Source: Anaerolineaceae bacterium (lineage in GTDB: Bacteria; Chloroflexota; Anaerolineae; Anaerolineales; Anaerolineaceae). From it: a stretch of 64,000 bases of DNA. The notes under the pieces are model-generated. The model did no database searches. It was given only the letters and a program-made list of their open reading frames with translations, and was not told where the DNA came from. Where the stretch lies: NCBI GenBank assembly GCA_016841365.1, contig JAENZI010000012.1:1-64000 (forward strand), in the 5' to 3' direction. Positions 16,172-54,205 of this stretch are shown here, piece after piece (position 1 is the first letter of the stretch; every line of letters starts with the position of its first letter). A program made the translations under genes and the position numbers.

Positions 16172-18103
16172 ATGAAACGCTGGCTCCGAATTTTATTGTT
16201 AATCCCGATTCTGTTGGCTGCTTGCCGCGCGCCGGTGAATGAACCGACGGCGGAGGTGGATGAACCAACAGAGACCCAGGCTGCGATTTTTTCTCCGACG
16301 CCTACAGCGACCGAAACCCCGCCGAAGGTTTTGACGGTTTGCACAACCCAATTACCTGACAACCTGCTCCCCTTTGGGAATTCGGGTTCGGCTGCGATGG
16401 AAAATTTACTGGCGATGACCTTCGAAAGCGGTTTTGTCCTCAATGATGGCGAGATTGCCCCTGGGATTGTGGCGAAGGTGCCCACCCAGGCGGATGGCGA
16501 TTTGCGGCTTACGCCTGTTTCCGTGCAGCGCGGGCAGCTTGTGATGAACGCTGAGGGTTCACTGGCAGTTCTTAAGGCGGGTGTACGCGTCTTCCCGAGC
16601 GGGTGCCGGCAGCCTGATTGTTCGCTGACCTGGGATGGCGAAACTCCCCTCGAAATGGACCAACTGGCGATCACATTCAAGATCAGGGATGACCTGACCT
16701 GGTCTGACGGCACAGCGGTTACGGCAGAGGATTCCGTCCTGGGCTATGAAGTTGCGGAATGGGCTGCTCAAGAAAGCTGGGGTTGGGAAGAAGAAAGAAC
16801 CATGTCCTACCGGGCGGTTGACACGAACACCGTCGAGTGGGTTGGCGTGCCGGGCTTTACTACATCACAGCTTGATGATTTCTTCTGGGCTCCGCTGCCG
16901 TCGCACTGGTTTGATGAGGCGCAATCGCCTCATGCGATCGTTGAAGATGAACGCTGGATCATGGAGCCGCCGAGTTACGGGCCTTTTGTGCTGGCATCCC
17001 GGGGTGTTGATGAACTTCGTCTGGAAGCAAACCAGAATTACTATCTGGCAGAGCAAGGGCTGCCGGAGCTGGACTCTGTGATCTATAAAGCTGTGCCAGG
17101 CGGAGCGCAGGCTGCCTGGGAAGCACTGCAATCTGGTTGGTGTGATGTGCTGGATGGTTCATTTAATTTGGCAGGTGAAAAAGCCTTGTTGGCAGAGATA
17201 AGCCAGGATGACCGGTTTTCCATTCAAACTCACACAGGTTTGGAATGGGTTCAGCTTGCCTTTGGGATAATGCCGGCATCTTATGATGATGGTTACCAGC
17301 CCGGGTTTGGCGACCGACCGGATATTTTCGGCGACCCTCTGACGCGTCAGGCTCTGACTGCCTGTCTGGACCGGCAGGCGATGCTTGATGAAACGATTGG
17401 GTATTTGGGCGAGGTGTGGAACAGCTTTTTGCCGCCTGATGCATCCCTGCTTGAAACAGCGGATGTGATCGGGCATGACCCGGCCTATGGCGTCCAGTTG
17501 CTTGAGCAAGTTGGCTGGCTTGATCATGACGGCGACGCTCAAACGCCTCGGCAAGCGTTTAATATCGCTGGGGTGAATAATGGCGAACCCCTGTCACTGG
17601 AACTGCTGGTTTCTCAATCTGGTCTCCATGCGGATTTGGCGGAGATTATCAATCGATCACTGGGTGAGTGCGGTGCAGCAGTCACTGTGACCAGCATGCC
17701 AGCACTGTATGCGCCCGGACCTCAGGGGCCGGTGTTTGGCCGCCAGTTCGACCTGGCTCTGATGGCATGGCAGCCGATGCCTGCGCTGGATTGCCTGTTT
17801 TATCAAACCGGGCAAATCCCTTCTGCGGCGAATAACTGGATTGGCACCAACATTGCGGGGCTGTCTGATACAGATTATGATAACGCCTGCCTGGCCGCGG
17901 CTTTTGCCCTCCCAGATGAGTATGACCAAGCGCTGCGCCAGGCTGAAGCGATGTATGTCGACCGTATGCCGGCCGTGCCCTTATTTGCCGTGCCAGAAGT
18001 GGTTGTGGTGGCAAAAGAGTTTTGTTCTTCTGAGGCGATTACAGAACCATCAAGCATGTTTGATGGGATTGAATTCTTGGATTTAAGTGTGGGTTGCCCC
18101 TGA
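16172..18103 (+). CDS. Family-5 ABC solute-binding lipoprotein (orphan)
   Basis: Extracellular binding protein of the oligopeptide/nickel (SBP_bac_5) class, 643 residues. The lipobox ILLAAC puts the lipidated Cys near residue 18, followed by a Thr/Pro/Glu linker. WSDGTAVTAEDSVLGYE near residue 180 and YGPFVL near 270 mark the N-terminal half, and RQALTACLDR near 395 the C-terminal half, so the order is canonical. No permease or ATPase adjoins it; it probably works with a transporter encoded elsewhere, or has become a sensor. It lies 34 bases after rsgA. Confidence 0.8.
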   Translation: MKRWLRILLLIPILLAACRAPVNEPTAEVDEPTETQAAIFSPTPTATETPPKVLTVCTTQLPDNLLPFGNSGSAAMENLLAMTFESGFVLNDGEIAPGIVAKVPTQADGDLRLTPVSVQRGQLVMNAEGSLAVLKAGVRVFPSGCRQPDCSLTWDGETPLEMDQLAITFKIRDDLTWSDGTAVTAEDSVLGYEVAEWAAQESWGWEEERTMSYRAVDTNTVEWVGVPGFTTSQLDDFFWAPLPSHWFDEAQSPHAIVEDERWIMEPPSYGPFVLASRGVDELRLEANQNYYLAEQGLPELDSVIYKAVPGGAQAAWEALQSGWCDVLDGSFNLAGEKALLAEISQDDRFSIQTHTGLEWVQLAFGIMPASYDDGYQPGFGDRPDIFGDPLTRQALTACLDRQAMLDETIGYLGEVWNSFLPPDASLLETADVIGHDPAYGVQLLEQVGWLDHDGDAQTPRQAFNIAGVNNGEPLSLELLVSQSGLHADLAEIINRSLGECGAAVTVTSMPALYAPGPQGPVFGRQFDLALMAWQPMPALDCLFYQTGQIPSAANNWIGTNIAGLSDTDYDNACLAAAFALPDEYDQALRQAEAMYVDRMPAVPLFAVPEVVVVAKEFCSSEAITEPSSMFDGIEFLDLSVGCP

Positions 18104-18175: not shown

Positions 18176-18766
18176 ATGGCGGTTTTAGCCAATTTATTAA
18201 GTAGAAACCCTGAAAGGGCTGTGGAAATGCGAAAATACGCTGATGATTATGAGATAGAAATTACTGAGGATGCAAAAGGGCGTGAAAAGAAGGTCGCTGT
18301 ATACCGGGGCGTCTATTATGAAATTGCCGCTGACGAAAAGCAGATCAAAACGTTTAGGCTTCTGAGCATTTTACTTACCCTCGTGACCGCCGCCCTGCAT
18401 ATTGCCGGGGGGTTTGTGGCGAACCAGGGAATGTATCAATTTTATGTCGCTCTGCCCTATGTGATAGCGTTTTTACCCTTATATTTCCTTGCTGCAGGCG
18501 TATTTCGCCTGCCAAACCAAAAACGGTTGCTGCGCAGGGATGAACATGGTCTTTCATTCGAGCGCATGAAGAAAGCCAGTATTTCATTGCTGGTTTTATT
18601 GCTGGTGGGGGTTTTGGGCGAAATCGTCTTCCTGATTTTCTTCGCGGCAGGGGATTATTCGCGGGAGATCATCTATCTCTTTTTGGAGATTTTTGCTGCA
18701 CTTTGCGTTTATGTTATTTTCTGGCAGCAAAAGCGTATGGGGATTGCGCTGACCAGCGCAGAATGA
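18176..18766 (+). CDS. Four-helix membrane protein of unknown function
   Basis: No family recognised. After about 60 hydrophilic residues (an acidic/basic segment DDYEIEITEDAKGREKK) come four predicted helices near residues 63-85, 92-112, 140-160 and 165-185. The start is uncertain: ATG at 18176 has no ribosome site; ATG at 18227 (MRKYADDYE) has GAAAGGG upstream at about nine bases and would give 179 residues. It sits between the orphan binding protein and the promoter of the first peptide importer, in its own transcription unit or as the end of the preceding one. Confidence 0.6.
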   Translation: MAVLANLLSRNPERAVEMRKYADDYEIEITEDAKGREKKVAVYRGVYYEIAADEKQIKTFRLLSILLTLVTAALHIAGGFVANQGMYQFYVALPYVIAFLPLYFLAAGVFRLPNQKRLLRRDEHGLSFERMKKASISLLVLLLVGVLGEIVFLIFFAAGDYSREIIYLFLEIFAALCVYVIFWQQKRMGIALTSAE

Positions 18767-18913: not shown

Positions 18914-21460
18914 ATGTTTAGATTCAAGAAAATCGTTTCTGTCCTAATCGTAGGCATTATGTTTGCCGGCTTGCTGGCCGCCTGCGCGACAGAAACCCCC
19001 GTAGTCACACCAGAACCGACTGAAGAAGTCGTAGCTACGGAGGAACCCACCGAAGAAGCAACAGAAGAAGCAACTGAAGTGGTCGAACCCACCGAAACAG
19101 AAGTTGTCTTTGAAGAGCAGCCTTTCGGCGAGGATTTGCCAACGGAACCGACCATTGACACACCATTGGTCGTTGCCTACAACGCATTCTCACAGAAATT
19201 CAGCCCCTTCTTCTCAGACACTGCATATGACGCAGATGTTGCTGGTATGACGCAGATTGCACTCCTCACGACCGATCGTGTTGGCGGTATTGTCCACAAT
19301 GCGATTGAGGGTGAAACTGTTGAATACAATGGAACGCCTTATCTTTATAAGGGCCCTGCCAACACCAGTGTGAAATACGACGAAGCTACCGACACCACCA
19401 AGTACACCGCACAATTGCGCGTTGGCATGAAGTTCTCTGACGGCACCCCCGTCACCGCTGACGACATCATCTTCACGTATTACACCTTCCTTGATCCGTC
19501 CTATGTTGGTTCAACCACCCTGTCATCCTATGACATCGTTGGTCTGAAAGATTACCAAACACAGACGACCACCGAAGTCTATGACAAATACGATGCGATG
19601 TTCGAGGCTATTTACGAAGCTGGTCCAGATGCCGAACCCGGCGATTGGACACAAGAACAGCAAGACGATCTCTGGACACGGATGGACGCTGAAGTCCTTT
19701 ACGAAGCTCAGAAGATTGTTGACTACGTCGATGTGAATTACCGTGATGCTTATTCAGAAGCCTACATTGGCTACCTCCCCGAGGAAGTTGCCGAAAATGA
19801 AGGCTTGCAGGTTGTTTTAGGTATGGCCCTCTGGGGTTTCGGTGAAGTCGGCGAAGACGGCACCTTTGCAGCTCCTTCCGGCGCGACCTGGGACCTGGTC
19901 GAAGCATTCCCAACCGTTGAAGATTACGCGAACGAAATCGTTGCAGCCTATGAAGGCGATCTCCGCACCGCTTTCCCATACGAATCAGCTGACGGCGCCG
20001 ATGTGGTTGCCAATGTGAAATCTGGCTTCATCGGCTACTGGGGTCCATTAGATGAATCAATGGGCGGCGAGGGTGTTCCCAACATTGCTGGTATCAAGAA
20101 GCTTGATGACTACACCGTCGAAGTTACCGTCAATGGTTACTCCGCACCTGCGGTTTACTCCATCCTTGGTATTCAGGTTACACCCCTGCACTACTACGGT
20201 GACGTAGATAAATATGATTACGAAAACAATATGTTCGGCTTTGACTTTGGCGATCTTTCCAAACAGGAAAGCCTGACCGCGACCCCCATGGGCGCTGGTG
20301 CATACAAGTTCGTTGCGTATGACAATAAAGTCGTTTTCTTTGAAGCCAACGAGTATTACTATCGCGGCTGCCCCAAGATTGCGGAAATTCAATTCCGTGA
20401 AACCGCCTCAGCTGAGGTTCCCTCCGCTGTTGCGACTGGTGAAGCTGACGCTGGTGAAATGACCTACTCCGGTGAACGATACGCTGAGGTCAAATCCTAC
20501 AACGCCAATGGCGAAATGACCGGTGATGTGATCACCTCAAGTATGGTTGACAACCTTGGTTATGGTTATGCCGGCATCAATGCTGCTACCGTCAACGTTG
20601 CTGGTGAACCTGGCTCCGATGCCTCCAAGAACCTGCGTAAGGGTCTTGCGACCATCCTGGCAGTCCATCGTGACCTGGCTATTGACAGCTACTACGGTGA
20701 AGGCGCTTCCGTCATCAACTACCCGATTTCCAACACATCTTGGGCTGCACCTCAGCCAACCGACGACGGCTACCAGATTGCATTCTCCGTTGATGTAAAT
20801 GGCGATCCGATCTACGCTGCCGACATGGCTCTGGAAGACAAGATTGCTGCTGCTGAAGCTGCGGCATTGGGCTTCTTCGAGGCTGCTGGCTACACCGTTG
20901 AAAATGGTGTTGTTACCGCTGCTCCTGAGGGCGCGAAACTTGACTACGAAGTTATCGTTCCTGCTGACGGCGTTGGTGACCACCCTGCGTTCGCTATCCT
21001 GACCAATGCTCAGGCCTCCCTGGCCAAGATTGGTATGGAACTCAAGATCAATGACCCCGCTGACAGCAACATCCTCTGGGACGCGCTGGATGCTGGGACA
21101 CAAGAACTCTGGACCGCTGCCTGGGGCACAACCATTGACCCCGACATGTACCAGGTTTATCACAGCTCCGGCGTTCCTGGTGCGGGTGGCTCAGATTCGA
21201 ACCACTACCACATTCAGGACGAAGAACTGGATCAGTTGATTGTTGACGCCCGCCTGAGTGATGATCAGAGCTATCGTAAAGCAATTTACAAACAGGCTCT
21301 TGACGTCATCATTGACTGGGCAGTCGAAATCCCGACCTATCAGCGTCTGAATGTTATTATCTTCAGCACTGAGCGTCTCAATGTCGATACCCTCACCCCT
21401 GATATCACAACCTTCTGGGGCTGGTTGAATGACGTTGAACTGTTGGAAATGAATCAGTAA
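18914..21460 (+). CDS. Peptide ABC transporter binding lipoprotein (family 5) with internal insertion
   Basis: Captures peptides or similar solutes outside the cell for the OppBCDF-like complex encoded next. The signal peptide ends in LLAAC and is followed by a long Thr/Glu linker (EEPTEEATEEATE). FSDGTPVTADDI marks the N-terminal lobe, GAGAYKF the hinge region and NLRKGLATILAVHRD the C-terminal lobe: canonical order. At 848 residues it is about 250 longer than usual. Most of the excess is an acidic, helix-rich insertion at about residues 205-385, before NIAGIKKLDDYTVEV. The start at 18914 follows AGGAGA at seven to eight bases. Confidence 0.88.
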   Translation: MFRFKKIVSVLIVGIMFAGLLAACATETPVVTPEPTEEVVATEEPTEEATEEATEVVEPTETEVVFEEQPFGEDLPTEPTIDTPLVVAYNAFSQKFSPFFSDTAYDADVAGMTQIALLTTDRVGGIVHNAIEGETVEYNGTPYLYKGPANTSVKYDEATDTTKYTAQLRVGMKFSDGTPVTADDIIFTYYTFLDPSYVGSTTLSSYDIVGLKDYQTQTTTEVYDKYDAMFEAIYEAGPDAEPGDWTQEQQDDLWTRMDAEVLYEAQKIVDYVDVNYRDAYSEAYIGYLPEEVAENEGLQVVLGMALWGFGEVGEDGTFAAPSGATWDLVEAFPTVEDYANEIVAAYEGDLRTAFPYESADGADVVANVKSGFIGYWGPLDESMGGEGVPNIAGIKKLDDYTVEVTVNGYSAPAVYSILGIQVTPLHYYGDVDKYDYENNMFGFDFGDLSKQESLTATPMGAGAYKFVAYDNKVVFFEANEYYYRGCPKIAEIQFRETASAEVPSAVATGEADAGEMTYSGERYAEVKSYNANGEMTGDVITSSMVDNLGYGYAGINAATVNVAGEPGSDASKNLRKGLATILAVHRDLAIDSYYGEGASVINYPISNTSWAAPQPTDDGYQIAFSVDVNGDPIYAADMALEDKIAAAEAAALGFFEAAGYTVENGVVTAAPEGAKLDYEVIVPADGVGDHPAFAILTNAQASLAKIGMELKINDPADSNILWDALDAGTQELWTAAWGTTIDPDMYQVYHSSGVPGAGGSDSNHYHIQDEELDQLIVDARLSDDQSYRKAIYKQALDVIIDWAVEIPTYQRLNVIIFSTERLNVDTLTPDITTFWGWLNDVELLEMNQ

Positions 21461-21575: not shown

Positions 21576-22565
21576 ATGAAAAATTTTATTATCAGGAGAG
21601 TCCTGCTCGGCATATTTATCGCCTTTTTTGGCGCGCTGGTCGTGTATTCCGTGATACGTTCACTTCCCTCCTCATATGTCGAGACGATTGCAAGGCAACG
21701 CGCTGCTAATCCTCTTAGCACGAAGACATATCAGGAATGGTTGGCTCAGCTGAATAGCGTCTATCACCTTGATGTTGGTATTATTCCAGGCTATTTTGGT
21801 TGGCTGGGGAATGCGGTCAGAGGAGATTTTGGAGAATCCTGGCATTATGGCATCCCCGTGACAGAAAGATTTAACCAGGTTGTCTGGTATTCCGTCATTA
21901 TCAATATCATTACTTTTGTGGTCCAGATGGTGATTGCGATTCCTCTCGGGATTTTAGCGGCGAGGAAGCAATACAGCAGGACAGATTACGCCATCACGGT
22001 CTTTGCCTTAATGGGTATATCGTTGCCGACATTTTTCCTGGCAACCATCCTAAAATATGTGTTTTCGATCAACCTGGGGTGGTTCCCATTATACGGTTTA
22101 ACGGGACGATTTCACACGTCGATGACCCCATTCCAGCAGATGGCGGATATGGCTTATCACATGGTGTTGCCCATCATCACGCTGATGATGCTTTCGATCG
22201 GCGGCCTGATGCGTTATACACGTACCAATATGCTCGAGGTGCTTAACTCGGATTACATCCGAACGGCACGGGCGAAGGGCCTTTCTGAAGAGGTCGTGAT
22301 CAACAAACATGCCTTCAGGAACACCATGATCCCATTGGTATCTTACCTGAGCTACTTATTGCCAGCCATGTTTGGCGGTGCATTGATCACGGAAACGCTG
22401 TACCAGATCCCGGGGATTGGTTTTGTGGCTTATGAAGCAATGACCCGCGGCGACATTCCATTTGCGATGTTTTATACAACGTTTCTCATCATCCTGACGC
22501 AGGTCAGCCTGATCGTGGCTGACATCATGTATGCTGTCGTAGACCCGCGCGTACGGGTGAACTGA
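21576..22565 (+). CDS. Peptide ABC transporter permease, OppB-like
   Basis: Inner-membrane channel subunit of 329 residues with six predicted helices. TARAKGLSEEVVINKHAFRN near residue 230 is the EAA loop that docks on the ATPases. An N-terminal helix and the long first outside loop (SSYVETIARQRAAN onward) match the OppB/DppB group. It stands 10 bases before the OppC-like gene and is preceded by the binding-protein hairpin. The ribosome site is weak (GGGAACG). Confidence 0.92.
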   Translation: MKNFIIRRVLLGIFIAFFGALVVYSVIRSLPSSYVETIARQRAANPLSTKTYQEWLAQLNSVYHLDVGIIPGYFGWLGNAVRGDFGESWHYGIPVTERFNQVVWYSVIINIITFVVQMVIAIPLGILAARKQYSRTDYAITVFALMGISLPTFFLATILKYVFSINLGWFPLYGLTGRFHTSMTPFQQMADMAYHMVLPIITLMMLSIGGLMRYTRTNMLEVLNSDYIRTARAKGLSEEVVINKHAFRNTMIPLVSYLSYLLPAMFGGALITETLYQIPGIGFVAYEAMTRGDIPFAMFYTTFLIILTQVSLIVADIMYAVVDPRVRVN

Positions 22566-22575
22566 GGTATTAAAT

Positions 22576-24330
22576 ATGTCTGAACATCAAGATCCTAATT
22601 TAGAACCAGAAGTAGAACTGATCGACAAGATTGAAGAAGAAATGCGGCTTGACGATGCCCGGCGTGTCAAGGTGCTTTCGCCCGGCATGCTTGTTTTCAA
22701 GCGCTTCATCCGTAACAAACTGGCTGTTGTCGGTTTGGGTATTTTATTCTTCATGTTTACCTTTTCTTTCCTGGGGCCGATTTTCTCGCCTTATGAACAA
22801 ACCCAGGTCTTTACCGGTTTGGGGAGCATGTCCAAGGATTATGCAGGGGCGATTTTTAATGAAGAATTGCGCTATACCGTTGCGGAAGAGGAATCCTTTA
22901 GTAACGCAGAACGCGCCCAATTCTTATTAGCCCTCGGAAAGGGTGAAGAAACTTTTTCTGTCGGTGACGATGTGTATTATTTCACAACTGAAAGTGAAGA
23001 CACATATCGGATCATGCAGCTTGACCCGGTGGCTGAAGAGCTTTTAGGCCGTATCAATCCAATCAACGGTGGGTCATTACCCGATGGCTTTGTGGAAGCT
23101 TATGAAACTGCTTCTGACAACGACCAGGCCAGCTTTGAATTTGATGGCACGATGTACCGAATTACCCAGAATCGCAAAGCTTTTCAGATTTCGACCGAAC
23201 ACGATGTAGCCTTAGCATCATTGACAATTTATGATGCATACAATCAGGAAGATACCGAAGAAGTCAATGCCTATCCGTTTATGCTTGCCAGTGAACGGGC
23301 GATCGCTGAACAGGATACAGAATTTACTGTAGGTGATAAAGAATATGCGGTCGATTACCAGGAAGGACGTGCGACGATTCTGAGCGGTGATGATCAGCCG
23401 TACGCTGAAGTATCGAATATCATCGTGAATCCGCTGGACCAGAACGAATTCCTGACGGTTGAATACAAAAACGCCATCCGAGATGCGGTCATTGATCGAG
23501 AAGATGAAGTTGATTTTACCCATGAAAACGGTGAAACCATCACTTACACGATTTCTCGCATCAATCAAAACTATTACATTAAGCGTGAAACACCGACCAC
23601 GTTAATTCGCCAGTATGAAGCGCCTTCTGCAGATCACCCATTAGGGTTGGATAACAACGGTATGGACGTCATGACCCGCCTGATGTATGGTGGACGGGTT
23701 TCACTGTTGGTTGGTTTTGTGGTTGTGATCATTGAGGTTGTGCTTGGCGTCATTATCGGCGGTATCGCTGGTTATTTTGGCGGTGCAGTCGATACAGCCC
23801 TCATGCGTTTTGTGGACCTCTTTAACAGCATCCCGTTCTACCCGATCGTGATCATTTTTGGTTCCGTGATGGATACGCTGGAAGTGGAACCCATGACACG
23901 TATTTTCTTGTTGATGGCGATCCTGGGTATCCTTGGTTGGACGGGCGTAGCCCGTGTGGTACGCGGTCAGATCCTATCTCTGAGAGAGCAGGACTTCATG
24001 GTCGCGGCAGAGGCAACCGGCATCCGCACCAGCCGCCGGATCTTCCGGCATCTTGTGCCGAATGTGATGCCGCTGTTGATCGTGCAGGCAACCGCAGGCT
24101 TGGGCGGGATCATCATCTCCGAAGCCACGTTGGGTTTCTTGGGCCTGGGTGTAAAATACCCCCTGGCCTCATGGGGCAGTATTATCAATGTTTCTTCAGA
24201 TGCTTACGTGATGACAAACTTCTGGTTCATGTGGATCCCCGCTGGTTTGTTGATCCTGTTGACGGTGCTTGGCTTCAATTTTGTTGGCGACGGCCTTCGG
24301 GACGCATTTGACCCGAAGATGAAAAGGTAG
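22576..24330 (+). CDS. Peptide ABC transporter permease, OppC-like, with four-repeat extracytoplasmic insertion
   Basis: Partner of the OppB-like subunit. OppC proteins have about 300 residues; this has 584. Helix 1 (about 49-69) is followed by an acidic region to about residue 350, after which DHPLGLDNNGMDVMTR and the remaining helices are canonical, with the EAA loop AAEATGIRTSRRIFRH near 475. The insertion appears to hold four imperfect repeats beginning at F116, F172, F235 and Y297, each reading aromatic-x2-3-A, acidic stretch, F-x3-G/E, Y, and ending in Y/F-x-I. By topology it lies outside the membrane and could contact the binding protein or the substrate. Confidence 0.88.
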   Translation: MSEHQDPNLEPEVELIDKIEEEMRLDDARRVKVLSPGMLVFKRFIRNKLAVVGLGILFFMFTFSFLGPIFSPYEQTQVFTGLGSMSKDYAGAIFNEELRYTVAEEESFSNAERAQFLLALGKGEETFSVGDDVYYFTTESEDTYRIMQLDPVAEELLGRINPINGGSLPDGFVEAYETASDNDQASFEFDGTMYRITQNRKAFQISTEHDVALASLTIYDAYNQEDTEEVNAYPFMLASERAIAEQDTEFTVGDKEYAVDYQEGRATILSGDDQPYAEVSNIIVNPLDQNEFLTVEYKNAIRDAVIDREDEVDFTHENGETITYTISRINQNYYIKRETPTTLIRQYEAPSADHPLGLDNNGMDVMTRLMYGGRVSLLVGFVVVIIEVVLGVIIGGIAGYFGGAVDTALMRFVDLFNSIPFYPIVIIFGSVMDTLEVEPMTRIFLLMAILGILGWTGVARVVRGQILSLREQDFMVAAEATGIRTSRRIFRHLVPNVMPLLIVQATAGLGGIIISEATLGFLGLGVKYPLASWGSIINVSSDAYVMTNFWFMWIPAGLLILLTVLGFNFVGDGLRDAFDPKMKR

Positions 24331-24339
24331 GTTAGAAGT

Positions 24340-25527
24340 ATGGAAAAGAACACAAAAGCCTTAATGGATGAAATTGCGGAAATTACGCAAGCTAAAAGTG
24401 GCACCCATATCTCGCCGCGTGAATCGGCGAAGATCACGCGTGCCAACCGCAAAATCACCGATGCAATCGAAAAACGGCGTGATCGAAGGAATGTGCCGGA
24501 AAGCGAATATCTCACCACAATGAACGATCCTGATAATGTGGTTGAGTTTGATAATTTGCACACCTATTTCTTTACCGATATCGGCACGGTCAAAGCCGTT
24601 GATGGTGTATCATTTGAAATCCCAAAGGGGAAATCAGTCGGTGTTGTAGGGGAATCTGGCTGTGGCAAATCCGTGACCGCTTTATCGTTAATGCAGCTTG
24701 TGCAGCGTCCGCAGGGACAGATTATTGAAGGCGCAATCCGCTTTGATGATGGCGAAAAGGTTTACGATGTCTCGAAAACACCCACCCAGGTGATGGAAAC
24801 CATTCGCGGCGCAAAGATTTCGATGATCTTCCAGGAACCGATGACGAGCCTCAACCCGGTATTTCGAACTGGTGACCAGATTGACGAAGTTGTCAAGCTG
24901 CATAATCCGGAAATGACTGAAGAGGAAGTTAAGGCGCTGTCGCTCAAAATGATTGACATGGTAGGAATCGCTAATAACACAGGCGTCTACCAGATGTACC
25001 CGCATGAGCTTTCGGGCGGGATGCGGCAGCGTGTCATGATCGCGATGGCGCTGGCATGCAACCCCAAACTGATCATCGCTGATGAACCGACCACAGCCCT
25101 GGATGTGACCATCCAGGCGCAGATCCTCGATTTGCTCAGAAACCTGAAGGATAAGATCAACTCAAGCATCATGCTGATCACGCACGACCTGGGTGTGATC
25201 GCTGAAATGGCAGATTTTGTTGTGGTGATGTATGCCGGACGGATTGTTGAAAAGGGCACGGCTGAAGAAGTCTTCCACAATCCGCTGCATCCTTATACTG
25301 TGGGTTTGATGGCATCGAAACCAGTGGTCAACAAGGAAGTAGAAAAACTTTACACCATCCCCGGCAGTGTGCCAAACCCCGTCAACATGCCGGATTATTG
25401 TTACTTTAAAGATCGCTGTAACCGGCGCATGCCCGTGTGTGATGGCGTTTATCCCAAGGAAGTGTATGTGACACCCACCCATATGGTGACCTGTTATCAC
25501 TACATCGATGAACAAGCAGAGGAATAA
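24340..25527 (+). CDS. Peptide ABC transporter ATPase, OppD-like
   Basis: Drives transport by ATP hydrolysis. Walker A GESGCGKSV, Q-loop FQEPMTSLNP, signature LSGGMRQRV, Walker B IIADEPTTALD and the switch histidine in LITHDLG are all present. The C-terminal oligopeptide domain (NPLHPYTVGLM) ends with a cysteine cluster (CYFKDRCNRR ... CDG ... TCYHY) of the kind reported to hold a 4Fe-4S cluster in homologues. About 65 charged N-terminal residues precede the usual start; they have no counterpart in the second operon's ATPase. Length 395. Confidence 0.93.
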   Translation: MEKNTKALMDEIAEITQAKSGTHISPRESAKITRANRKITDAIEKRRDRRNVPESEYLTTMNDPDNVVEFDNLHTYFFTDIGTVKAVDGVSFEIPKGKSVGVVGESGCGKSVTALSLMQLVQRPQGQIIEGAIRFDDGEKVYDVSKTPTQVMETIRGAKISMIFQEPMTSLNPVFRTGDQIDEVVKLHNPEMTEEEVKALSLKMIDMVGIANNTGVYQMYPHELSGGMRQRVMIAMALACNPKLIIADEPTTALDVTIQAQILDLLRNLKDKINSSIMLITHDLGVIAEMADFVVVMYAGRIVEKGTAEEVFHNPLHPYTVGLMASKPVVNKEVEKLYTIPGSVPNPVNMPDYCYFKDRCNRRMPVCDGVYPKEVYVTPTHMVTCYHYIDEQAEE

Positions 25528-25528
25528 G

Positions 25529-26536
25529 ATGGAAGAAAAGAACAACGGCAAAAACACGCTTGAGCATAAGAAAGAAGATATTATCGAGGTAAACGACCTC
25601 AAACAATATTTCCCAATCAAGGCTGGCTTATTGCAGCGCGTGGTTGGTCATGTGAAGGCAGTGGACGGCATCAGCTTTAAGATCAAACGCGGCACCACAA
25701 TGGGCCTGGTGGGCGAATCAGGTTGCGGTAAGACGACGGTTGGCAAGACAATTCTACGTTTGAATGAAAAAACAAGTGGTGAAGTTTTATTTAATGGTAT
25801 TGATATTTTTGATCTTGATCGTGAAGAACTGCGTCGAATGCGCCCAAAAATGCAGATCATCTTCCAGGATCCTTATTCGAGCCTTTCTCCGCGCTTGCCT
25901 GTGAGTGAGATCATTGGTGAAGCGGTCAGAGAGCACGGCCTTTCTCCTGAAGAGGGGCATGATGCTTACATTGATCACATTATGGAGATTTGCGGTTTGC
26001 AGCCCTACCATAAGGACCGCTATCCCCACGAATTTTCGGGCGGCCAACGGCAGCGCATTTGCATTGCCAGGGCATTAGCCTTGCTCCCCGAGTTTATTGT
26101 ATGTGATGAGCCTGTTTCTGCGCTGGATGTGTCCATCCAGGCACAGATCATCAATCTGCTCAAAGAACTGCAGGATGATTTTGAATTGACCTATTTGTTT
26201 ATCTCGCACGACCTTTCGGTGGTGGAGCATATTTCAGACGAGGTTGGCGTGATGTATCTGGGTGATCTGGTTGAGGTCGGCAGCAAGAAGCAAATTTTCC
26301 GCAATCCGCTGCACCCCTACACCAAAGCGCTATTAAGTGCTGCGCCAGTTCCTGACCCGACAGCGGAGAAGGAACGGATCATCCTTGAGGGCAGTATCCC
26401 TTCACCGGCGAACCCGCCTTCCGGGTGCAAATTCCACACACGTTGCTGGAAGCGCATGGATATCTGTGACAAAGTTGTTCCTGAAGTCAGAGAGGTTGAA
26501 CCAGGCCATACAGTTGCCTGCCATTTATACGATTAA
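25529..26536 (+). CDS. Peptide ABC transporter ATPase, OppF-like
   Basis: Second ATPase of the first importer. Walker A GESGCGKTTVGKT, Q-loop FQDPYSSLSPR, signature FSGGQRQRI, Walker B FIVCDEPVSALD and LFISHDLSVV. The C-terminal end again has the peptide-importer cysteines (GCKFHTRCWKRMDIC). I start at 25529, one base after the OppD stop, with AGAGGA at seven bases upstream; an ATG at 25508 would overlap the OppD end without a ribosome site. Length 335 residues. Confidence 0.93.
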   Translation: MEEKNNGKNTLEHKKEDIIEVNDLKQYFPIKAGLLQRVVGHVKAVDGISFKIKRGTTMGLVGESGCGKTTVGKTILRLNEKTSGEVLFNGIDIFDLDREELRRMRPKMQIIFQDPYSSLSPRLPVSEIIGEAVREHGLSPEEGHDAYIDHIMEICGLQPYHKDRYPHEFSGGQRQRICIARALALLPEFIVCDEPVSALDVSIQAQIINLLKELQDDFELTYLFISHDLSVVEHISDEVGVMYLGDLVEVGSKKQIFRNPLHPYTKALLSAAPVPDPTAEKERIILEGSIPSPANPPSGCKFHTRCWKRMDICDKVVPEVREVEPGHTVACHLYD

Positions 26537-31162: not shown

Positions 31163-32506
31163 ATGAAAGCATTTAAAAATTCATTTCAAGAAATAAAACG
31201 TTATCCATCTGCCATGTTTGGGCTGGCGATTGTGATCCTCCTGATCATCACAAGTATTGTCGTGATCATTGCCATCCCATACAACGAGGCTATTCGTCTG
31301 TGGCGAGGGGGAGAAGGTATATGGTATCAGAACCCGAAAACTGCGCCGCCTGCCTGGACCAACTGGTTCACCAAAGAGGATAAACCTTCCTCTTATTTTT
31401 TGGCAGAAGGCGATGAGCGGGTAACAAAGACGGTTGAAGAATTTACTGAGGGGTCGGGTGATATTACTTACGTTTTTACGTTTGAATATGATTATGATGC
31501 CTTTCCATCAGAGATGGCGCTATATCTTGAAAGTGATTATGAAACGAAGAATCCCTTTGCGGATATGTATTGGATCCAACCTGACGGCACAGAGATTCGG
31601 GTAGCCAGCATTGGCGTTGATAAATCGCAAACCCTGTATTTCTCACAGGACAGCAAGTTACAGCGCAGGTTAGGCGATGTCTCCCCTGAAGTCGGCTTAT
31701 TTATTGTTCCAGATTCCGATCCGCCACAGGTGATACCGGGCACTTATCAATTGATTGTTGATGGGATCCGGTTTGAACCCGATTCGGATATTAATGCGGA
31801 ATTTGTGATTTACGGCCAGGTGCATGGCTTGGCAGGCACAGACCATCTCAGGCGGGACCTTTCGATTGCACTGCTGTGGGGCATCCCGATCGCGCTGATT
31901 TTCGGCCTGGTCGCAGCGTTGGGCACATCAATATTGACGATGACGATCGCGGCAATCGGCGTGTGGAATGGTGGTTGGGTGGATGAGTTGATCCAGCGCA
32001 TCACGGAAATCAATATGGTGCTACCCTTCCTATCCATTTTGGTGATGATTGGGACGTTCTATTCTAAAAGTTTATGGGTGATCCTTGGCGTGACGATTTT
32101 ATTAAGCATCTTTGGGGGCGGGATCAAAACCTATCGGGCGAACTTTATGCAGATCAAAGAATCCATGTATATCGAAGCGGCCGAAGCCTATGGTGCCAAG
32201 AATTCACGCATCATCTTCCTGTACCTGATCCCCCGGATCATCCCGTTATTAATTCCTGGGCTGGTTTCTTCCATCCCAACCTATGTGTTCCTCGAAGCCA
32301 CTTTGGCGGTGCTGGGGCTGGGTGATCCCGTTCTGCCCACATGGGGGAAGATCATCAACGATGCTCAGCAAGCTGGGGCTTTATATAACGGGATGTATTA
32401 CTGGATCCTTGAACCAGCGGTGCTTTTGATGATCACTGGCCTTGCATTTGCCATGCTGGGCTTCTCTTTAGACCGAATTTTCAACCCGAGATTGCGAGGG
32501 CTATAA
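31163..32506 (+). CDS. Peptide ABC transporter permease, OppC-like, with beta-rich insertion
   Basis: Partner permease of 447 residues, about 150 more than usual. After helix 1 (about 18-38) an outside domain of roughly 180 residues (41-222) precedes the canonical AGTDHLRRDLSIALLWG. It alternates charged and aromatic residues (YVFTFEYDYDAF, TYQLIVDGIRFE), suggesting beta strands, and shows no resemblance to the insertion in the first operon's OppC. The EAA loop is EAAEAYGAKNSRIIFLY near 332. It is 4 bases from the next gene. Confidence 0.88.
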   Translation: MKAFKNSFQEIKRYPSAMFGLAIVILLIITSIVVIIAIPYNEAIRLWRGGEGIWYQNPKTAPPAWTNWFTKEDKPSSYFLAEGDERVTKTVEEFTEGSGDITYVFTFEYDYDAFPSEMALYLESDYETKNPFADMYWIQPDGTEIRVASIGVDKSQTLYFSQDSKLQRRLGDVSPEVGLFIVPDSDPPQVIPGTYQLIVDGIRFEPDSDINAEFVIYGQVHGLAGTDHLRRDLSIALLWGIPIALIFGLVAALGTSILTMTIAAIGVWNGGWVDELIQRITEINMVLPFLSILVMIGTFYSKSLWVILGVTILLSIFGGGIKTYRANFMQIKESMYIEAAEAYGAKNSRIIFLYLIPRIIPLLIPGLVSSIPTYVFLEATLAVLGLGDPVLPTWGKIINDAQQAGALYNGMYYWILEPAVLLMITGLAFAMLGFSLDRIFNPRLRGL

Positions 32507-53049: not shown

Positions 53050-54054
53050 TCAATCATCGATAACTTCCGGTTCCAACAGGCTTGGGTGGACGTTGGGTGT
53101 AATGTCATACCCGTGGTTCCGCCAAATTGAATCTGCCAGCGGTTGTGGTTTACAATGCAAACCTTGCACCTGGAAGTATTCGCATAGCCTTGCGATGTCC
53201 CGTCTAAAGATGGCATAGGCACTGCGGTTTACCCGCGGGTCAATGGCTTGTGGAAAATCGATCAGAAAGATCTCGCCTTCGAAATAAAGGATGTTGTAGG
53301 CTGAAAGGTCGCCATGTACACGCTGGTTCTCCAGCATAATCTCCACATTATGCAATACATCATCAAGTACTTGTTTGGCTTCTCGCACCGTCAGGTTGAC
53401 GGTGTTGAGTGTCGGCGCCGGGAGATCGTCCCATCCAATGTATGCCATCAGGATGGCGTTATTACCACTGACATAGGGTTCGGGTAGCGCGGCGCCAGCT
53501 TTGTGCAGCATTGACATGGTCTGGAATTCGTGTTCGATCCACGAGGTGTGCAATAAGCGCATACCAAATGCGGTGCGTTGTTGAATGGCGTGCATGGCAC
53601 GGTCATCGCGGATTTCATGGCCTTCATCATCCAGGGCAATGCGCCCTTCACGGTAAAGTGAGTCGTTGCGCAATTGACGGAACTTGCGCGGCCGGTAAAC
53701 CTTTGCTGCGAGGTATTGGGTTTTTGTGCTCTGGTTGCCGAGGCACTGGTAGACGGAGGCTTCTTTGCCGCCGCCTTTGATCAGCCGTAGAATGTCATCA
53801 AACCATTGCTGGCGATAAAAATCCTGCAGTGACGCGATCAGCCACTCTAGTTCATGTTTCGAGGCGCCATAGGAGAAATTGAGTTCATTCTCCTTCTCAG
53901 CCAATTCAAAAATTTCATCCACCTGATTGGAGGAAGGACGTTTTTTAATGGCAGTCTTCTTTCTGGTTTGTTTTTGAGGAACATTACGGATTGAAGGGAT
54001 GCCATCCAGATCTTCTAATTGTTCATACAGTTCAAAATTATTGTTCGAATGCAT
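53050..54054 (-). CDS. RIO-type serine/threonine kinase
   Basis: Atypical protein kinase or ATPase, 334 residues. KGGGKEASVYQC is the RIO nucleotide loop, AAKVYRPR holds the ATP lysine, HGDLSAYNILYF is the catalytic loop with Asp and Asn, and LIDFPQAID the metal-binding Asp. About 85 basic residues precede the kinase fold. RIO kinases of archaea and eukaryotes act in small-subunit maturation; the bacterial role is unclear. Upstream, a 22-codon reading frame and a terminator hairpin lie in its leader, so it may be controlled by attenuation. Confidence 0.9.
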   Translation of the reverse strand: MHSNNNFELYEQLEDLDGIPSIRNVPQKQTRKKTAIKKRPSSNQVDEIFELAEKENELNFSYGASKHELEWLIASLQDFYRQQWFDDILRLIKGGGKEASVYQCLGNQSTKTQYLAAKVYRPRKFRQLRNDSLYREGRIALDDEGHEIRDDRAMHAIQQRTAFGMRLLHTSWIEHEFQTMSMLHKAGAALPEPYVSGNNAILMAYIGWDDLPAPTLNTVNLTVREAKQVLDDVLHNVEIMLENQRVHGDLSAYNILYFEGEIFLIDFPQAIDPRVNRSAYAIFRRDIARLCEYFQVQGLHCKPQPLADSIWRNHGYDITPNVHPSLLEPEVIDD

Positions 54055-54103
54055 TGTTACTTAAATTTCCTTGTTGTTTAAATCACTTAACATGTGAACA
54101 TCT

Positions 54104-54118
54104 CTGGCATACTGCCAG
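54104..54118 (-). promoter_or_regulatory. Small hairpin in the RIO kinase leader
   Basis: CTGGCA (54104-54109) and TGCCAG (54113-54118) form a 6-bp stem with a 3-base loop about 50 bases before the kinase start. Its role is unknown. Confidence 0.35.
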
Positions 54119-54144
54119 GCATATTCTTAATCGGTGTTTTTCTT

Positions 54145-54180
54145 GGGGGAAAAGAAAAACCACAGGCGCATGCCTGTGGT
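54145..54180 (-). terminator. Terminator between the MazG-like gene and RIO kinase
   Basis: ACCACAGGC (54159-54167) and GCCTGTGGT (54172-54180) form a perfect 9-bp stem with a 4-base loop, followed on the minus strand by TTTTTCTTTT. It lies 26 bases after the small frame at 54206-54274 and before the RIO kinase gene. Confidence 0.8.
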
Positions 54181-54205
54181 GATGAAAGTCAAACCTTGTT
54201 TGAGA

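Follow-up and report, generated by a model that had tools for sequence, protein, structure and literature searches.

The 64,000-nucleotide stretch of Anaerolineaceae DNA analyzed here (the window) encodes a peptide-type (Opp4-like) ABC importer of this family, whose OppC permease carries an insert of four diverged repeats with a period of approximately 62 residues. The inserted module is a lineage-specific, undescribed OppC variant, matching no known domain family, and is restricted to this family of anaerobic Chloroflexota, apart from two probable strays.

The OppC-type permease with its inserted outer domain comprises 584 aa (positions 22576..24330; this and the other features of its operon are encoded on the + strand). 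Its first transmembrane helix (TM1), located by hydropathy, spans about residues 44-72 (22705..22791), and the canonical permease core, which matches Pfam, NCBIfam and PDB entries, covers residues 348-584 (23617..24327). Two Pfam models passed their cut-offs, namely OppC_N (PF12911) at residues 35-77 (45.5 bits versus 23.9) and BPD_transp_1 (PF00528) at residues 391-584 (102 bits versus 26.4), with no Pfam match between them. The top NCBIfam model, the Opp4C equivalog (NF045476), did not pass (327.3 bits, below the cut-off of 350), its match being split in two by the insert. A phmmer search of the PDB showed that the core (window residues 348-584) is shared with OppC/DppC of E. coli and Mycobacterium (8z21, 8z1v, 8wd9 and 8j5q; E 1e-39 to 1e-51), whereas residues 78-347 are unmatched by these solved chains, which measure only 287-302 aa. 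For the loop comparison, 29 class-level OppC loci were considered, of which 16 were measurable by the motif script. The distance from the end of TM1 to LGxD is 283 residues in the window OppC versus a median of 18 (14-20) in these 16 relatives; the window protein thus lacks the short TM1-TM2 loop of an ordinary OppC. Both chain length and loop length bear out an earlier note, made from the same DNA, that had described the subunit as almost twice the normal size. The long open frame of one class-level OppC (L081, 550 aa) was discarded, being an upstream read-through and not a real insert. Long TM1-TM2 loops occur in other OppC paralogues of the window's genome too (at 31163-32506, and at loci L003, L004 and L006). 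Their sequences do not resemble the four-repeat insert, and the loop therefore seems to be a common insertion site in the lineage.

A profile of the insert was built from residues 75-347 of 29 distinct OppC sequences of the family and compared with itself using ungapped 40-column windows, with no repeat borders assumed. Self-matches were found at offsets of 62, 63, 60 and 123 columns with scores of 14.5, 13.9, 10.2 and 5.7, respectively. Scores from 500 column shuffles of the profile went no higher than 9.6 (95% level, 4.8), so that none reached the best score, and the reversed non-overlapping control peaked at -0.5. When the four repeat sub-profiles were compared using hhalign, five of the six pairs scored above 60/60 column shuffles and above the reversed profile; the pair of repeats 1 and 4 did not, its score being reached by 3/60 shuffles. 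A chance repeat is ruled out by the column shuffles, hhalign and the reversed control. The self-match offsets and the hhalign pairs define four units: repeat 1 at residues 101-163 (22876..23064), repeat 2 at residues 164-225 (23065..23250), repeat 3 at residues 226-288 (23251..23439) and repeat 4 at residues 289-347 (23440..23616), the last two having also been modeled as a pair with AlphaFold. They are preceded by a conserved pre-repeat segment (residues 75-100, KDYAGAI.N.ELRY; 22798..22875).

We thereby confirm the self-similarity that the earlier note had expected, with two amendments. In its register, the starts at F172, F235 and Y297 are indeed equivalent (spacing 63 and 62), whereas F116 is four residues out, the true equivalent being residue 112 (offset 60). 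Of the features that it had assigned to each repeat, the alanine, the Phe and the Ile return as the columns common to all four units (in alignment A5, A17 within the helix, F25 ahead of the hairpin and I43 in the final strand), but the acidic stretch is no repeat feature as such, the acidity spanning the whole insert (pI 4.09). All four repeats are kept in 29/29 aligned OppC sequences and each contains invariant residues. The insert is nevertheless the fast-evolving part of the protein, with a mean identity of 44-52% for the repeats versus 83% for the OppC core.

Structure prediction of the whole insert with AlphaFold2 (12 sequences) returned the order helix-strand-strand-strand(-strand) four times. 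The disorder that had been named as an argument against a folded domain was thus not found, but the confidence for the whole insert is low (mean pLDDT 55.4). When repeats 1-2 were added to the alignment as further sequences (A4, 24 rows), the model of repeats 3-4 reached a pLDDT of 78.1 and a pTM of 0.49. Based on this confidence and the fourfold secondary structure, it is fairly likely that the repeat unit of ~62 residues folds as a single helix and then three or four strands. Foldseek searches with the whole insert and with repeats 3-4 gave no match with E < 0.001. VIA-align Z-scores reached 3.3 with the whole insert (against PAS/LOV, ZAP and others) and 5.5 with the repeat pair, spread over mixed folds, and we take these predicted similarities as a common helix/strand arrangement. 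A single repeat unit superposes on WWE domains of HUWE1 (7mop, Z 5.0, rmsd 2.1, 51 aligned; 7jq9, Z 4.4; 6pfl, Z 4.3) and PARP14 (1x4r, Z 3.9). These eukaryotic domains, with middling Z-scores and no sequence match to the repeat, likely reflect the same common arrangement. At the sequence level, the repeat profile picked up nanobodies among PDB sequences (best E 0.0049), which we ascribe to composition noise, and the repeat domain has no meaningful match in Pfam, NCBIfam, PDB, PHROGs or plasmids. Literature listings searched for an OppC that is enlarged or carries an inserted domain showed nothing on such a protein. The four-repeat module hence represents a domain family absent from the libraries searched.

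The insert profile matches 41 of the 147 genomes of the window's family (Anaerolineaceae). In samples of the wider class and phylum it matches 7 of 396 and 6 of 400 genomes, respectively, all of which fall inside the family. One of the 41 (G131) matches through a free lipoprotein only, its OppC not being found in the 73%-complete assembly. In an order sample of 151 genomes, the insert is present in 12/12 genomes with a close OppB, and no OppC orthologue free of the insert was seen. Coverage outside the phylum consists of a search of plasmids and one peptide-pattern scan of named genomes, whose 11 loci belong to Anaerolineaceae, Brevefilum, Longilinea and Chloroflexi MAGs, plus locus L051. Outside the family, the same OppC occurs in L051, on a contig titled Candidatus Hatepunaea (Electryoneota), and in genome G977 (L065), of the same order but of family f14. 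Both sequences fall inside the family in the tree, making transfer or misbinning likely.

The four-repeat domain is also encoded as a separate protein in seven genomes, all from genus g15. A lipoprotein-type signal with its Cys was recognized by eye in six of these, the seventh being masked at that end, although none of the three free copies scanned reached the Pfam lipoprotein-signal cut-off (best 18.8 versus 20). In 6/7 genomes the gene is flanked by oppF and a glmU-like gene, while only glmU was seen in the seventh (labels from short motifs). The free proteins have no counterpart of the pre-repeat segment, and in a midpoint-rooted tree the five complete copies group as a single clade, set against the 41 OppC inserts (100/100). 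A free copy with a lipoprotein signal supports an outer location and a function without covalent fusion, and its presence in relatives suggests that the domain is a real, probably working module. Together with the self-similarity and the lack of any hydrophobic segment in OppC residues 78-345 (hydropathy), these homologous lipoproteins uphold the notion of a duplicated small domain outside the membrane. An extracytoplasmic position of the module, in the loop after TM1, is well supported by these sequence features.

In the operon, oppC is accompanied by genes for an OppB permease of normal length (329 aa; 21576..22565), an OppD ATPase with an N-terminal extension of ~65 aa (24340..25527) and an OppF ATPase (25508..26536), all assigned using Pfam/NCBIfam. 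The same operon encodes an enlarged OppA binding lipoprotein of 848 aa (18914..21460), for which the ATG at 18914 was chosen as start based on the signal peptide MFRFKK...LAAC, and a second family-5 binding lipoprotein of 643 aa (16172..18103; Pfam). A small membrane protein of 196 aa without known family (18176..18766) is syntenic in relatives, its gene lying ahead of oppA both in the window and in those genomes that were seen to carry it. The extra stretch of OppA, at about residues 205-385 (19526..20068), appears as a gap between the binding-protein model matches. It is lacking in a 645-aa OppA paralogue (L129; G122:C86, 2948-4882) that is 56% identical over window OppA residues 389-846 and does without these ~180 residues. 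The enlarged OppA was found in 39 of the 147 family genomes, all 39 of them among the 41 with the insert profile. In the two remaining genomes (G129 and G150) the operon seems to be cut off by the contig end. In a class sample of 150 genomes, none of the other 149 matched the enlarged OppA at 1e-30.

The most economical reading of the module, to which we assign a probability of roughly 45%, is that it docks or grips the enlarged OppA in the manner of MalF-P2, given that it occupies the corresponding outer face in the C subunit. The ~270 residues, in four ~62-residue copies, would sit on the permease mouth and receive or grip OppA, so that the peptide could be handed over without escaping. The job of the module would then be the one done in other importers by DppB, with its TM1-TM2 scoop, or by MalF, with its P2 region. 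P2 lies between TM3 and TM4 of MalF, which belongs to another permease family and carries it in another loop than the window OppC, and no sequence or repeat relation between MalF-P2 and the OppC insert is known. As described for the maltose importer, MalF-P2 (residues 91-271) is likewise a sizeable folded insertion on the outer side of a single permease subunit, and part of it contacts the binding protein MalE directly (PMC3150292). In DppABCDF, the outer scoop motif of DppB is described as entering the DppA cleft and sealing the cavity (PMC12136057). Like the window module it follows TM1 on the outer side, and it touches the binding protein, as the module is proposed to do, but in that description it consists of two short helices of ~30 residues in the B subunit, compared to ~270 residues of repeats in the C subunit (PMC12136057).

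Docking of OppA is circumstantially supported by the enlarged OppA occurring with the insert in nearly every genome. The distances of the insert and the OppA insertion also covary in a partial Mantel test, a liberal type of test (partial r 0.35, permutation p 0.0005; 34 operons, with OppB, OppC core and OppA lobes fixed). With all else fixed in 20 operons, the equally liberal values for the insert were 0.50 with the 196-aa membrane protein, 0.25 with the OppA insertion and 0.10 with the second binding protein. Under like controls in 28 operons, this kind of test gave 0.36 with the membrane protein, 0.28 with the OppA insertion (membrane protein fixed too) and 0.29 with the OppA lobes. The covariation with OppA, which is weak and not specific, being as strong with the membrane protein (0.36-0.50), would be consistent with co-inheritance and perhaps some functional coupling. 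Three further points count against OppA docking. The fast evolution of the insert is not what a tight interface alone predicts. The insert (charge -35) and OppA (-103) are both strongly acidic, which makes charge attraction unlikely without cations. Finally, genome G114 has a kinase-fused OppA that retains the OppA insertion, and the stretch examined there contains no OppC.

The fast evolution of the insert would fit a varying ligand. The module might itself act at the mouth of the importer as a pre-receptor or concentrator that binds peptides, proteins or envelope material, with the free lipoprotein doing likewise away from the permease and with OppA not as its main partner. We consider this less likely than OppA docking. 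In its favor, seven genomes of a single genus encode the free form, with its lipoprotein signal, beside the importer, but that copy adjoins the same operon and could equally serve OppA, and no known binding fold was matched by sequence or structure. A less probable role is that of a scaffold for a membrane or surface partner other than OppA, such as the 196-aa membrane protein, in agreement with the covariation and the gene order. By eye, this protein has short outer loops only, and two fast-evolving genes may share signal by resolving the same tree better, an objection weakened by the second binding protein, which is also fast and shows no such signal (0.10). Least probable is that the module is a mostly neutral spacer that grew by tandem duplication and persisted by chance. 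Fast evolution and a site that tolerates inserts (long unrelated loops in the paralogues) might suggest this, but it sits poorly with four repeats retained throughout the aligned OppC sequences, invariant residues in every repeat and a domain that is also maintained as a protein of its own, with an export signal.

Peptide importers are usually seen as a standard core with a diffusing or tethered binding protein, and none is known to have a receptor built into OppC. A broader, rather doubtful scenario is that an undescribed extracytoplasmic repeat domain arose in one family in two forms, at the permease mouth and as a free lipoprotein, and may constitute a relay with the enlarged OppA, in which the permease itself would capture the peptide or its receptor before handover. 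A lineage-fixed module at the permease mouth that also exists as a separate lipoprotein offers a testable case of binding-protein recruitment in Anaerolineaceae.

Two unusual fusions were observed among the homologs of these proteins. In G114, a 1491-aa ORF on the minus strand (L128; G114:C66, 3944-8416) carries an OppA-like domain, 51% identical to the window OppA, joined to a membrane segment and an apparent Ser/Thr protein kinase (motifs recognized by eye). It is a possible peptide-sensing kinase, judged from its sequence motifs, and the neighboring ORF starts like a second such kinase. In the window's own genome, locus L006 (G000:C13, around 53532-54191) is an OppB-OppC fusion in one open frame of ~978 aa, the examined part of which contains two BPD_transp_1 stretches and OppC_N.
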